A stretch of DNA of 42,013 nt from the NCBI GenBank assembly GCA_013177895.1, contig JABLXV010000026.1:1-42013 (forward strand), given 5' to 3'. The notes under the pieces are model-generated. The model was not told where the DNA came from. It saw only the letters and a program-made list of their open reading frames with translations, and did no database searches. How positions within the stretch are numbered: the stretch's first letter is position 1; each line of letters begins with the position of its first letter. The translations under genes and the position numbers were made by a program. Shown here piece after piece: positions 21,892 through 38,775 of the stretch. The stretch comes from Brevinematales bacterium (GTDB lineage: Bacteria > Spirochaetota > Brevinematia > Brevinematales > GWF1-51-8).

Positions 21892-24204
21892 ATGAAAATC
21901 ACAGAAGCAGAAATCCGTCATGCCGGCCCGCTGAAAAAGCAGACCGTGACTTTCGAACCCGTCACCCTGATTGTCGGGAATAACGAACGGGGAAAAACCA
22001 CCCTTTCGGATGTCCTCATCCGCGAACTTTTCCAGCCGTCCAAGGGAAAATCCAAATCCCCCGCCGATAACGTCATCAATCCGCGCTTTCAGGATACGTG
22101 CGACGTCAAAATCACTACCGACGGCGAACAACTACCCGGCGATCTTGCCGGCTACGCGTCCCTCCTGGTTATCCGCGAGGGCGACATCCGATGGTCGTGG
22201 AAATCCGGCAAGGACATCGAATCGAAGGATTACTGGAATACGGATATCAAAGAGGTGCTGTACGGGCGGGACGGGGTCTTCACTAAGATCAACGCGGAAT
22301 TAGGCGAACTCCTCGGGGTGCGCACCAACGCGAGCTGGCTGATGCAGCTTCGGAAAAACACCGCGCAGTACCGCGAAGCGGTCGTCCATGCGTGCGGGGA
22401 AATCGGCCGCGCCAAATCCGCGCGCGAGCGTCTCGCGGGACTCACCGCCGATTATGCCGCTGTTCGCGCCGAATGGGAGCGCCAGCAGGCCGGCCTGCAG
22501 GTCAACGACCTCCAGCGGAAATACGACGCGGGGTTCACCTACTTCCGGCTGATCGACGAGAAAAAAAAGAATAACGAAGAACTCGCCGCCATCGAGGCGC
22601 GCGGCCCGGAGAAAATCCGCAAGGACTGGGTCGACGCCGAACGGGAATCCGTCCGTCTGGACGGCGAAATCGCTATAGAAGAACAGAAGCTGAAGAGCCT
22701 GAAATCCGACAGCAGTAACCTTACTGAATTCGACAGGAGTATCGCCGAGAAGGAGGAATACCTCCGCAGGAAACAGGCCGAACTGGACGGGCTTTCCCGG
22801 AGCACGGGGAATGCCAAACCCGCCGGCTCGCGGACGGCGTTGACAGTGATTGCGTCGGTGTTAACCGTACTCGGGTTGACCGGGATAACCCTGACAATCC
22901 TCGCGATGATGAAAAAACTCGACTTCGACCCTATCGTCCTCCTGCTTCTCTCCATCGCGTTCTTTCTCCCGGGTACTGCGGGCATCATATACGCAATCGC
23001 CGCCCCCCGGCCGGCGCAGCAGCAGAACGCCGGACTTCACATGCAGGCCGGCCTGCTGAACGAGACGATCGGGAATACCCGCGCGGAGATCGACGGGCTT
23101 ATCCGCCGGCGCGCCGCGTTACAGGCCGCGCTTTCTGAGAACACCCCGGAATCGATCGAGCGTAGGCTCGCGGAACTCCGTGCTAGGCAGACCGCGACCG
23201 ACGCGGTCAAGCGCGAGCTGCGGCTGGTGTACGCGTCGATAGATCAGGTCGAGGCGGCATGCGGCAGGCTGTCCGAGCTTCGCGGGCGCGCGGGAAATCT
23301 CGACTCGTCGATGGATCAGACCCGCCGGGCGGTCGAGGAATTATTCGGTAACGATAATGAAACCTATATTCAAAGCGAGATGAAAACCCTCCAGAAGGAA
23401 ATATCGAAAAAGACCGGCGGCACGGATATAAAATATATCGAGGAGCAGTTCGCGGAGCTCGACGGACGGAAAAACGGGATCGAGGCGGAAATGTCCGCCC
23501 TACGGCAATCGATAGAAAGCGCGACCTCCGGGGCGCGTTCGGGTGCGCAGACCGCCTATTCGGCGTTCCTCCGGGACTTCGGGAAAAGCGCCGACCGTAT
23601 CCGTTCGTTCTACAGCGAGATCGAACGCGTTATCCCCGGCGAGAACCCCTACCTCCTCTTCGGAATCGCGGAGACTCTCGAGGAATGGGAACGGAGGATC
23701 GACGCGGATATCCGTTACTCCCAGATCGCGGATAAGGCGTTCACAGGGATACAGGCCAATGTGGATATCCTCCTCAACGGCGTGTTCCGCAGCGCGGGCT
23801 TTAGTAAAGCGCTCGCCGCCATCTCCGGCGGATTTTATACCGGCGTGGAGACCGTCATCAGACCAAACTCCCCGCGCGGCGGGAACGATATCGAGATCGG
23901 CGCGATCACCTCGTCGGGCGAGAAATACCGTTTCGCCGATCTGAGCACCGGGGCGCGGAATATGTTCTATTTCGCCATCCGTATGGGTATCGCGATCGAC
24001 CGTTTCGCGCAGACCCCGTACATATTCCTGCTCGACGACGCGTTCCTCTCATTCGACCATGACCGCCGCCGGAACGCCCTCACCCTGCTGAAGGAGTATG
24101 CCGGGATGGGATGGCAGATCATCTATTTCAGCGTGAACGACCTTTCGATGGAGAACACGTTCGCCGAAGTCTTCGGCGGCGACTTTATGAAACTCGTCCT
24201 GTAA
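21892..24204 (+). CDS. SMC/Rad50-like ATPase with two membrane segments (YhaN type)
   Basis: A 770-residue ABC-type ATPase. Residues 29-37 are the Walker A motif GNNERGKTT. Long coiled coil covers about 165-310 and 385-560. Between them two hydrophobic stretches (roughly 314-336 and 343-365) look like membrane helices. The C-terminal half carries the ABC signature-like LSTGARNMFYFAIRMG (~684) and Walker B YIFLLDDAFLSFD (~710-722), with a final IIYFSVND (D-loop/switch). This is the head-coil-head plan of Rad50/SbcC, and the membrane insertion resembles Bacillus YhaN. A nuclease partner such as SbcD/YhaO would be expected, but none is adjacent; it sits in a glycan cluster. Only a weak AGGT precedes the ATG. 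Function is unknown; DNA repair or envelope-linked roles are both possible. Confidence 0.75.
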   Translation: MKITEAEIRHAGPLKKQTVTFEPVTLIVGNNERGKTTLSDVLIRELFQPSKGKSKSPADNVINPRFQDTCDVKITTDGEQLPGDLAGYASLLVIREGDIRWSWKSGKDIESKDYWNTDIKEVLYGRDGVFTKINAELGELLGVRTNASWLMQLRKNTAQYREAVVHACGEIGRAKSARERLAGLTADYAAVRAEWERQQAGLQVNDLQRKYDAGFTYFRLIDEKKKNNEELAAIEARGPEKIRKDWVDAERESVRLDGEIAIEEQKLKSLKSDSSNLTEFDRSIAEKEEYLRRKQAELDGLSRSTGNAKPAGSRTALTVIASVLTVLGLTGITLTILAMMKKLDFDPIVLLLLSIAFFLPGTAGIIYAIAAPRPAQQQNAGLHMQAGLLNETIGNTRAEIDGLIRRRAALQAALSENTPESIERRLAELRARQTATDAVKRELRLVYASIDQVEAACGRLSELRGRAGNLDSSMDQTRRAVEELFGNDNETYIQSEMKTLQKEISKKTGGTDIKYIEEQFAELDGRKNGIEAEMSALRQSIESATSGARSGAQTAYSAFLRDFGKSADRIRSFYSEIERVIPGENPYLLFGIAETLEEWERRIDADIRYSQIADKAFTGIQANVDILLNGVFRSAGFSKALAAISGGFYTGVETVIRPNSPRGGNDIEIGAITSSGEKYRFADLSTGARNMFYFAIRMGIAIDRFAQTPYIFLLDDAFLSFDHDRRRNALTLLKEYAGMGWQIIYFSVNDLSMENTFAEVFGGDFMKLVL

Positions 24205-26630: not shown

Positions 26631-27968
26631 ATGCGTCCGAATCTTTGGAAAACCGTCAAGGGACTGCTGAAAGACGAATACTACCGAAATAGCGCCATTC
26701 TCTTTATTTTTACCATGGCGAGCAATGTTTCGCAGTATATTTTTAAGATTTTCGCGAACCGGAACCTCACCAAGGAGGAATACGGCCTATTCGGGGCGCT
26801 TCTGTCGCTGATCCAGATTATCGCGATAGTTGGCGTCGTGCTGAAAACATGGAGCACCAAGGCCTTCTCGCAGATACATTCCTACGGCAACCATAAAAGT
26901 ATCCCCGGAACCTACCGTTATTTTTTCATCATTATCGGGATATTTCTCGCGGTATTCTCCGGGCTATTTATCATCTTCCTCCCCACGGTGATGAAGATAT
27001 ACAAGGCCGACGACGCCGCGCCGTTTTTTCTGCTGATGGCGATCATCGTCTTCGAGTACCTGAAAGTCCCGTTCAATTCGTTCCTCGAGAGCTTCGGGAA
27101 TTTTTTCGGGCGTTCCATATCCCTGTTAACCATGATACTGGTGAAGGTTCTCGTGCTCGGTGTTTTCCTGTTCTTCAGCCTCACCCTCGCGAAAACCATG
27201 TGGGCAGTCCTGATCGGGTATATCGCGGGATTCATCATGTTCGTTATTTTCTCGCTCCCTAAAGTCACGAAATTCGACATCCGGAAGCAGGATTCCCCCG
27301 ATAAAGAAATCTCGCAGAAAAGTTTCTCGTTCTTCTATAAAATCGGGCTCGCTATCATATTCTCCACCCTGCTCCAGACTATCGATATGCAGCTCGCGCG
27401 TATCCGTCTGGGCGAGGCGCTCTCCGGGGATTTCGCGACCGCGCGTGATCTCGGGAGTATCGTGTACTGGTTCGGGACTATCACCCTGCCCCTGTTCTTT
27501 ATATCGATCAATAACGCGTTCCATAAGAAGCAGAACTATCTACCTGTATTCCTGAAGGGGCTTTTTGTAGTGCTGGGGGTTACCGGAGTCGGGCTCTTCG
27601 GGTTTATTATCGCCATCCGCCCGTTCGTCGGATTCTACAACCCCATCTACCTCAGCGCGATCGACGCCATCCGTTATTACGCGATTTCGTGCGTGCCGTA
27701 TATCCTGATCAACCTGATGCTCCAGTTCTTCATCTCGCTCGACCGTTATAAGGTGTTTATCCCGCTCATGCTGCTCGCCCTAGGGCAAGCCGCGCTCTTC
27801 TACTTCTTCGGGCAGGATATGCAGTCGATCATCGATATCCGTTTCTACTCGGGCATCGCGATCCTGCTGTTCATGGGGGTCTATTTCTTCATCATGCGGA
27901 ATAAGTTTTATAAGGCCGAGCCGGACGAGATGGACCCCGCCTTGCCTGTAGAAGACGAGACGTTGTAA
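26631..27968 (+). CDS. Polysaccharide/oligosaccharide flippase (Wzx/MATE-like)
   Basis: A 445-residue polytopic membrane protein with about a dozen hydrophobic helices, beginning SAILFIFTMASNVSQYIFKI after a short basic N-terminus. Residues LTKEEYGLFGALLSLIQIIA are typical of the polysaccharide-biosynthesis (RfbX/Wzx) family, which flips lipid-linked oligosaccharides across the inner membrane. The tail after the last helix is acidic (ALPVEDETL). AGGATGAG precedes the ATG and overlaps the end of the GT4 gene, so the two are coupled. The last 30 nt of the gene lie inside a triplicated block that continues downstream. No Wzy polymerase is recognisable here. Confidence 0.85.
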   Translation: MRPNLWKTVKGLLKDEYYRNSAILFIFTMASNVSQYIFKIFANRNLTKEEYGLFGALLSLIQIIAIVGVVLKTWSTKAFSQIHSYGNHKSIPGTYRYFFIIIGIFLAVFSGLFIIFLPTVMKIYKADDAAPFFLLMAIIVFEYLKVPFNSFLESFGNFFGRSISLLTMILVKVLVLGVFLFFSLTLAKTMWAVLIGYIAGFIMFVIFSLPKVTKFDIRKQDSPDKEISQKSFSFFYKIGLAIIFSTLLQTIDMQLARIRLGEALSGDFATARDLGSIVYWFGTITLPLFFISINNAFHKKQNYLPVFLKGLFVVLGVTGVGLFGFIIAIRPFVGFYNPIYLSAIDAIRYYAISCVPYILINLMLQFFISLDRYKVFIPLMLLALGQAALFYFFGQDMQSIIDIRFYSGIAILLFMGVYFFIMRNKFYKAEPDEMDPALPVEDETL

Positions 27969-28138
27969 ATTTCCCGGAGCTCTTTTACAGTAACTGGAAA
28001 TCTCTACTCCGGCGCAGGCGCCCTGCCTATAGAAGACGGGACGTTGTAAATTTCCCGGCGGGTTTCATAGTACATCATTACTAGTTCTCCGGCGCAGGCG
28101 CCCTGCCCGTAGAAGACGAGACGCTGTAAATTTCACCG
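27940..28138. repeat. Three-copy direct repeat, ~80-bp period, including the flippase 3' end
   Basis: A ~36-bp core (CCTTGCCTGTAGAAGACGAG... through TGTAAATTTC) occurs at 27940-27977, 28021-28058 and 28101-28138, 81 and 80 bp apart, with a few substitutions. CTCCGGCGCAGGCG precedes the second and third copies. Copy 1 holds the last codons and stop of the flippase gene; copies 2 and 3 still spell a variant of the same C-terminal peptide plus TAA. It is a tandem duplication spacing the flippase from the next gene. Confidence 0.9.
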
Positions 28139-28148
28139 CGAGGTAACG

Positions 28149-29108
28149 ATGACAAAAAAAGTAACCATCATCAGCGCATGCCTGAACGAGGAGAAAAATA
28201 TCCTCCGGTGCCTCGATTCCATCGCGAAGCAGGATTACCCCCATGACGCGATCGAGATACTGGTCGCCGACGCGATGTCGACCGACCGTACGCGCGAACT
28301 GATCGCCGGATGGAAGAAAACCAACGACATAGAAATCAAAGTGCTGGATAACCCGCGGATAGTCGCGGAGTTCGGGAAGGCGGTCGCGCTCAAGGCGTCG
28401 ACCGGCGACTATGTGTACCAGTTCGACGCGGACGAGGAGATGGCGCAGGCCGACATGATCTCGTCGTTCGTCCGCGCGTTCGAAATATTCCCCGATATCG
28501 CGGGGGTCGAGCAGGAATTCCTGGAAATCCCCGGCGGCCCGGCGCTGAATAATTTCCTCTCGGTCATCCATATCGGCGACCTTCTCGCGCGCGATATCGC
28601 GATCAAGCCGCGCCGGGTGGATAAGCGGGTGATCGACGGGAAAGTCTACCGCAAGTACCTGCTCTATCCCGGCTACCCCGCGACTATGTTCCTGAAGCGC
28701 GAGGCGATCGAGAAGTTTATCGGCGGCGAGACCTACGAGGAGGGGCAGGTTACCCTCACGCTCGCGCAGTCGGAGAACAACAAGATCGCGATGATCGACG
28801 GCTACGGGGTTTATCATTACAGCGTCAAGTCGCTCGGGCAGTACCTGAAGAAACGGAACAAGATCGCGCTCAAGCATACGACCCGTATTCAGGAGCGGAA
28901 GACGTGGGTGAGCTATACCGGCGCGCGCACGTACATCTTCGCGTTCCTGCACCTCACGCTCGTGTTCCCGATCGTGTTCGCGGTCGCGAAGGCGATCCAG
29001 AAACGGACGCCGTTATGGCTCCTGTATGCGCCGATGGCAGTTCTCACGACCGTCGTCTATGCGTGGAACTGGCTCAAGCTGAAAATTACGCGAAAGAAAG
29101 CATGGTAG
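28149..29108 (+). CDS. Glycosyltransferase, GT2 family, membrane-associated
   Basis: A 319-residue inverting GT-A glycosyltransferase. It starts KVTIISACLNEEKNILRCLD, with ILVADAMSTDRTRELIAGW in the nucleotide-sugar pocket (a variant of DDxSxD) and YQFDADEEM as the DxD metal motif. Two hydrophobic segments near the C-terminus (ARTYIFAFLHLTLVFPIVFA and LLYAPMAVLTTVVYAW) anchor it in the membrane. GAGGT 5 nt before the ATG marks the start. It follows the flippase and its repeat block in the same direction and closes the glycan cluster. The transferred sugar is unknown. Confidence 0.87.
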   Translation: MTKKVTIISACLNEEKNILRCLDSIAKQDYPHDAIEILVADAMSTDRTRELIAGWKKTNDIEIKVLDNPRIVAEFGKAVALKASTGDYVYQFDADEEMAQADMISSFVRAFEIFPDIAGVEQEFLEIPGGPALNNFLSVIHIGDLLARDIAIKPRRVDKRVIDGKVYRKYLLYPGYPATMFLKREAIEKFIGGETYEEGQVTLTLAQSENNKIAMIDGYGVYHYSVKSLGQYLKKRNKIALKHTTRIQERKTWVSYTGARTYIFAFLHLTLVFPIVFAVAKAIQKRTPLWLLYAPMAVLTTVVYAWNWLKLKITRKKAW

Positions 29109-37669: not shown

Positions 37670-37695
37670 ATACGTTGACTAATCAGGAGGCGGAA

Positions 37696-38775
37696 ATGAG
37701 AAATATTTTAACGATGGGGATACTACTGTTATTCGCGGTTTCCCTGCAGGCTGAGCCCGGTAATGAGGTATGGAAGTTCCATACGGGGGATTACGTATTC
37801 TCCACCCCGTGCATCGTAGGAAACTGGGCGGTCTTCGGGAGCCGTGACGACTCCCTCTACTGTGTCGATATTTACCGCGGGAAACTGGTATGGCAGTTCG
37901 AAACCGGCGGCGATGTCAAAACCAGCCCCGTCTACTGGGAAAATAAAATTTATTTCGCGAGCGACGATTATTATATTTACTGCCTGAACGCCAAGACCGG
38001 CAAGGAGATATGGAAAACCCTGACCGAGGGCACCTACTTCGGAAGCCCGGTAATCGCCGACGGGAATCTCTATATCGGCGGGAAGGACGGTTTCGTATAC
38101 TGCGTGAACGCGAAGAACGGTAAGATTGTGTGGAAACACTCCATCGACGATTCGATCAGCTCCACCCCGTTCGTAACCGGCGGAAAAGTCTACTTAGGCG
38201 GGGACGACGCCAATATCTACTGCCTCAACGCGAAGGACGGTAAAGAGGTGTGGAAGTTCGCGGCGGCGGACGACGTGCTCTCCAGCCCGTGTGTGGCCGA
38301 CGGTAAGGTCTACGCCGGGGATTACGCCGGATACCTGTACTGTCTCGACGCCAAGACCGGCAAGGAGATATGGAATTTCCAATCGGACGACGTGATCTTC
38401 TCCAGCCCGTATATTTCGGACGGGAAGGTCTATTTCGGGAGCTGGGACGATAACTTTTACTGTGTGAACGCCAAGACCGGTAAGGAGATATGGAGCTTTC
38501 AGGCCGAGGATAATATCGAGACCTCCCCGGTCGTGGTAGACGGTGTGGCGATATTCGGGAGCGCGGACAGCTATGTCTACTGCGTCGATATCAAGGACGG
38601 TTCGCTGAAGTGGAAATATAAGACGGGATACGTGTTCGCGAACAACCCGACTGTCGCGTACGGGAAAGTGCTGATCGGCGGATGGGATCAGTATCTGCAC
38701 TGCATCTGGTCGGGAACCGCCCCGAAGACGGTCGCCTACCCCGTGATCAGCGGGATGTTCCAGATGAAGAAATAA
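37696..38775 (+). CDS. Secreted PQQ-type beta-propeller protein (BamB-like)
   Basis: A 359-residue exported protein with signal peptide MRNILTMGILLLFAVSLQA. It holds eight ~40-residue blades of the PQQ-enzyme repeat type: YCLNAKTGKEIWK, YCVNAKNGKIVWKHS, YCLNAKDGKEVWKF, YCLDAKTGKEIWNFQ, YCVNAKTGKEIWSFQ and related, each with the Trp docking residue. Enzymes of this class bind PQQ and calcium, but no catalytic residues are seen and the sequence is closer to the non-enzymatic BamB/propeller scaffolds. ATG 37696 follows AGGAGG by 5 nt. The terminator at 38788-38820 ends the transcript. A role in envelope or outer-membrane assembly is speculative. Confidence 0.85.
   Translation: MRNILTMGILLLFAVSLQAEPGNEVWKFHTGDYVFSTPCIVGNWAVFGSRDDSLYCVDIYRGKLVWQFETGGDVKTSPVYWENKIYFASDDYYIYCLNAKTGKEIWKTLTEGTYFGSPVIADGNLYIGGKDGFVYCVNAKNGKIVWKHSIDDSISSTPFVTGGKVYLGGDDANIYCLNAKDGKEVWKFAAADDVLSSPCVADGKVYAGDYAGYLYCLDAKTGKEIWNFQSDDVIFSSPYISDGKVYFGSWDDNFYCVNAKTGKEIWSFQAEDNIETSPVVVDGVAIFGSADSYVYCVDIKDGSLKWKYKTGYVFANNPTVAYGKVLIGGWDQYLHCIWSGTAPKTVAYPVISGMFQMKK

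Follow-up and report, generated by a model that had tools for sequence, protein, structure and literature searches.

In the genome of a Brevinematales bacterium, the 3' end of a flippase gene appears to form a local three-copy minisatellite which probably originated through tandem duplication, near or later than the split from a sister species, and whose extra copies are likely untranslated and without selected function. The repeat of the gene end is found only in this species and is ordinary in kind. The window, i.e. the whole stretch of 42,013 nucleotides analysed here, corresponds to contig C26 in a draft genome of 3.6 Mb (G000), and the array lies within a gene run resembling surface-sugar synthesis (GDP-mannose dehydratase-like, GT4, flippase of the Polysacc_synt family, GT2). 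The features of the locus are as follows.

26631 to 27968, + strand: flippase gene, Polysacc_synt family, 445 aa (PF01943, E 2.4e-8)
27942 to 27973, + strand: core copy 1, LPVEDETL, TAA, ATTTC; the real gene end
27974 to 28019, + strand: spacer 1; its ends, CCGG and CTCCGGCGCAGGC, are common with spacer 2, its middle (27980–28006) differs
28023 to 28054, + strand: core copy 2, LPIEDGTL, TAA; in the copy 1 frame (81 bp), behind the stop, without its own start
28055 to 28099, + strand: spacer 2; its middle (28061–28086) is unlike spacer 1
28103 to 28134, + strand: core copy 3, LPVEDETL, TAA; frame shifted relative to copy 2, without a start codon
28135 to 28148, + strand: GT2 leader, in which GAGG resembles a ribosome-binding site by eye; closely matched in the sister species (G001)
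28149 to 29108, + strand: GT2 glycosyltransferase gene, 319 aa (PF00535, E 8.6e-18)
L021 3459 to 5165 and L022 3264 to 4960: the two intervening genes of the congeners G002 and G003, counterpart of window 27969 to 28148

Three direct copies (27926–27979, 28007–28060 and 28087–28140) have their block starts at 27926, 28007 and 28087, i.e. at spacings of 81 and 80 bp, and the first starts inside the flippase gene, the last eight codons and stop of which belong to core copy 1. Tandem Repeats Finder places the array at 27938–28134 (period 80, 2.4 copies, 80% matches, score 245), so that coordinates and program both confirm the direct repeats at 80–81-bp spacing reported in a preliminary description of this DNA. 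The peptides it had read, LPVEDETL or LPIEDGTL followed by TAA, are indeed found in each copy: a 32-nt core made up of the last eight flippase codons, TAA and ATTTC is present in all three, and reads LPVEDETL, LPIEDGTL and LPVEDETL in copies 1, 2 and 3, with the stop behind each. As for the ~80-bp triplicated block of that description, the three copies and their spacing stand, but only ~36 bp (CGCC and the core) is common to all of them and the spacer middles are unlike. A 12-bp left flank, CTCCGGCGCAGG, occurs in copies 2 and 3 and is absent from copy 1, and over 54 nt copies 2 and 3 are 89% alike, against 74% for copy 1. The extra copies 2 and 3 occupy the 180-nt gap between the flippase stop and the GT2 start.

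The array is far beyond chance. At up to three mismatches, a 24-nt pattern built from the three copies has three matches in the window, all of them these copies, where 0.00 are expected from 100 dinucleotide shuffles. A search for downstream copies of ORF ends (mechanical ORFs, 100 aa or longer) across 442 kb of the genome, window included, gave a repeat within 300 nt for just 1 of 371, namely the flippase end (30/32 bases), with the next-best end reaching 20/32. Unit copies thus stand head to tail beyond chance, as in a minisatellite or VNTR.

The flippase is found at E 1e-20 or better in 4 of 13 genomes of the order, all in this genus, with orthologues in all three congeners (94, 76 and 62% identical) which are ungapped at the C-terminal end, and the GT2 gene is present in 4/4 genus genomes. 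In the sister species G001, which is 92% identical at this region, flippase and GT2 adjoin, with one core and a stop-to-ATG gap of 21 nt vs 180 nt here; the aligned pieces cross the flippase–GT2 junction without N. Copy number therefore differs between close relatives (three here vs one in G001) rather than being fixed, and the tandem duplication that had been proposed is likewise supported. Flippase and GT2 are separated in G002 and G003 by two genes, for a hexapeptide-transferase and a Gfo/Idh/MocA oxidoreductase, and there is no array between the pair. That the array is a scar from the loss of these two genes was rejected, as nothing in the repeat resembles the gene ends (by eye). At E 1e-20 neither G000 nor the sister G001, an assembly of only 73% completeness, has a match for the oxidoreductase, and this may indicate a different surface sugar. 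No further occurrence of the core is present in the four genus genomes at up to three mismatches, and among the literature matches listed, judged by title, none concerned this locus.

Compared in pairs over 32 sites, the three cores show 3, 3 and 4 differences, while copies 1, 2 and 3 differ from the G001 core at 4, 5 and 3 of 32, copy 3 being the nearest. For comparison, the two species diverge at synonymous sites by 26% (flippase), 24% (GT2) and 40% (GT4), and a 65-nt gap upstream in the gene run differs at 12/65 sites (counted from the alignment). Since the core differences fall below the 24–26% synonymous difference, the copies would be younger than the species split (at 25% difference, P is 0.025 for three or fewer of 32 and 0.07 for four or fewer, for pairs that are not independent). 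However, the copies differ mutually about as much as they do from the G001 core, so an age near the split would fit as well, and the dating of the duplication is weak. As to the direction of change, a collapse between copies 1 and 3 would be expected to retain the left-hand portion of copy 1. The corresponding portion of the G001 core (CTA CCC) differs from it, which favours gain in the G000 lineage; from the few sites of one sister MAG, gain in this species is likely.

In the history that we propose, ~36 bp of the flippase end, and with it ~45 bp of spacer, would have been duplicated into the gap before GT2 in the lineage of this species, around or after the split, and a second round would have given three copies, with slippage or recombination between short direct repeats as the likely mechanism. 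Because the stop stands in the same phase in each copy, a gain or loss that pairs cores would leave the flippase unchanged, and would shift the GT2 start in ~80-bp steps, giving gaps from 21 to 180 nt; the unchanged flippase would in turn explain why the extra copies are tolerated. We modelled recombination between cores, taking every pairing at all 33 offsets, with loss and gain, giving six cases. All six yield a 445-aa flippase with the tail LPVEDETL, LPIEDGTL or LPVEDGTL, varying only at V/I and E/G, as every copy has its in-phase stop.

The peptide reading behind the stop had been described as preserved, but duplication alone gives it. The cores differ at five sites, all transitions, and three of the five are synonymous; as 11–12 of the 27 possible transitions in the core codons are synonymous (P 0.33–0.40 for at least 3/5), the reading is kept no better than chance, and it is what any recent copy of a gene end shows. 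In copies 2 and 3, no ATG, GTG or TTG stands in frame upstream before a stop, and these copies are most likely not translated.

The preliminary description also suggested a spacer for the GT2 gene, which is possible, but the absence of promoter- or terminator-like sites and of Rfam matches, and a fold that is unremarkable against dinucleotide shuffles, weaken the suggestion. In its fullest form, the array would be a regulatory leader whose copy number tunes GT2 output through distance, mRNA structure or translation uncoupling, and this appears unlikely. The array does lie directly before the GT2 start, with the gap widened from 21 to 180 nt, and a small hairpin can be drawn for each spacer. 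The gap is more strongly folded than its mononucleotide shuffles (z −2.35), but that is the weaker control; against dinucleotide shuffles the region has z −1.52, with 14/200 as good, and taken alone the spacers and repeats do not outdo mononucleotide shuffles in folding. The stretch 27800–28300 contains no promoter- or terminator-like site, and 27000–29000 no Rfam match at E up to 1, so no known RNA was recognised there. In Mycobacterium tuberculosis, tandem repeats in promoters change in copy number before a gene within populations, and this variation is proposed as an expression switch (PMC12817950). The present array is like these in its tandem copies before a gene and their differing number, and unlike them in that no promoter-like site was found. 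In the gene pairs tested from E. coli and Haloferax, coupling by reinitiation is reported to be almost lost already at ~20 nt (PMC10666635), and hence a gap of 21 vs 180 nt may matter little.

The spacers fit the duplication less well than the cores. Their middles (27 and 26 nt) align no better than random sequence, with 1216 of 2000 shuffles aligning as well, and these unrelated middles are flanked by cores differing only by ~10%. Had a clean tandem duplication taken place as recently as the cores imply, the spacers would be expected to resemble each other, which the middles do not; either each event brought in filler DNA, or the spacers decayed while homogenisation or selection held the cores alike. 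The second option corresponds to an old array, a DNA or RNA element with cores kept alike by selection or gene conversion, whose spacers degenerated and whose extra copies disappeared from the sister species. Such an array would explain the ~90% alike cores beside unrelated middles, as well as copies that differ mutually about as much as from the G001 core, yet we consider it quite unlikely: the few informative sites at the left of the G001 core run contrary to a collapse of copies 1 and 3, the core is absent from G002 and G003, and coding constraint is not evident in the five core changes.

Two sources of the spacers were rejected. Import from elsewhere is at odds with the four genus genomes, in which neither middle has another match at up to three mismatches; in best local score over the 442-kb sample, spacer 1 (27) is within the range of 20 shuffles (22–31), and spacer 2 (30) against a shuffle maximum of 28 is not counted as a finding. 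Derivation from decayed upstream flippase sequence fares no better, as shuffles reach the observed score in 1512 and 1038 of 2000 cases for the middles, and in 1608 and 1022 of 2000 for the whole spacers.

Alike copies around unrelated middles of 27 and 26 nt also recall a CRISPR, but there are only three copies, one of them in a gene, and no cas genes were found by PADLOC among the seven neighbouring proteins, for which only ATPase-type defence models were returned (for an SMC-like protein at 21892–24204). Real repeat–spacer biology, whether copying of the gene end as a ~50-bp block with unrelated, near-equal spacers, or a cis element whose cores are selected outside the reading frame, is in our view very doubtful. 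Barely credible is the proposal that the flippase C-terminus is phase- or length-variable, or that readthrough of the TAA into copy 2 adds 26 residues: copy 2 does lie 27 codons (81 bp) from copy 1 in the same frame with the stretch between them open, so that only UAA readthrough would join the two, but an 18-codon open stretch between two cores is in our judgement not unusual, the frame behind copy 2 reaches TAG after six codons, copy 3 is out of the copy 1 and 2 frame with a TAG seven codons upstream in its own, every modelled gain or loss keeps 445 aa, and the tail is ungapped in 4/4 genus members, with P439 and E441 invariant. In the model, then, the flippase end is neither phase- nor length-variable by core recombination, contrary to what had been suggested, and copy number alters neither frame nor length as it does in a phase-variable coding repeat.

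Mycobacterial interspersed repetitive units (MIRUs), such as that of senX3-regX3, lie between operon genes, can overlap the upstream stop codon and are dispersed over the genome; the core described here is unlike them in occupying one locus only among four genus genomes. A dispersed or MIRU-like repeat was accordingly rejected, with no other copy in G000 or its three congeners at up to three mismatches, and elsewhere in G000 matches to the repeat are only at E 0.7 or worse. Exact matches to the 16-nt flank CTCCGGCGCAGGCGCC are confined to this array, and at up to two mismatches it has 17 matches in the four genomes vs 23 for a reversed control. A scar of a mobile element or attachment site was likewise discarded: the core has 0 exact matches in viral contigs and occurs nowhere else in the genus, and no integrase was found among the six neighbours scanned with Pfam. 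The locus is closer to loci such as ETR and Mtub21 in M. tuberculosis, which have 57 to 77 bp units in intergenic spacers, in 1 to 5 copies, with alleles showing single-base changes and deletions (PMC2413405); in ETR-D, alias MIRU4, a 77-bp unit is present 2, 3 or 5 times (PMC2413405). Like these intergenic VNTRs, it has units of ~80 bp and a differing copy number (three vs one in G001). Unlike theirs, the variation shown here is between two species, not among strains, and the spacer middles are unrelated.

Other short arrays occur in the same genome, namely 53 bp × 4.6 (C1), and 113 bp × 1.9 and 89 bp × 2.2 (both C21), and in the four table rows examined they look non-coding or of doubtful coding. 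A doubtful frame of 106 codons ends within the 89-bp array, and the other copy precedes that end. The downstream test is blind to upstream copies, and the flippase array, its only hit, need not be the only array that carries a gene end. The 53-bp array (L057 12710–12952, C1; 4.6 copies, 95% matches) lies in a region with parts that recur at many further sites across the genus genomes, and hence seems to be part of a dispersed repeat. Its flanks are 113 bases apart in G003 vs 477 between the same flanks in G000, 461 vs 533 bases in G002 (767 and 1304 not counted) and on different contigs in G001. By these distances the array is reduced or missing at the corresponding position in G003, with G001 and G002 uninformative. 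The 113-bp array has a 65% match over query 1–465 in G001, short matches in G001 and G003, and none in G002. Within the window, a further tandem repeat at 38267–38494 (period 120, 1.9 copies) lies inside the coding frame 37675–38775, which carries repeated blocks of the type YCLNAKTGKE, presumably as in beta-propeller proteins. At L074 488–1311 (C50), an array with a ~61-bp period around GGATCACCCCCACGCATGTGGGGAATAC is, by the type of its motif, what we take to be a candidate CRISPR array.

The flippase array offers a worked case of why a preserved peptide behind a stop does not have to be coding. When a gene end is duplicated, its codons and stop are copied along with it, and a change in copy number is therefore silent for the protein. 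The unlike spacers between alike cores pose a small question on how short tandem arrays grow, and if strains of this spirochaete genus were compared, the array could serve as a typing locus.
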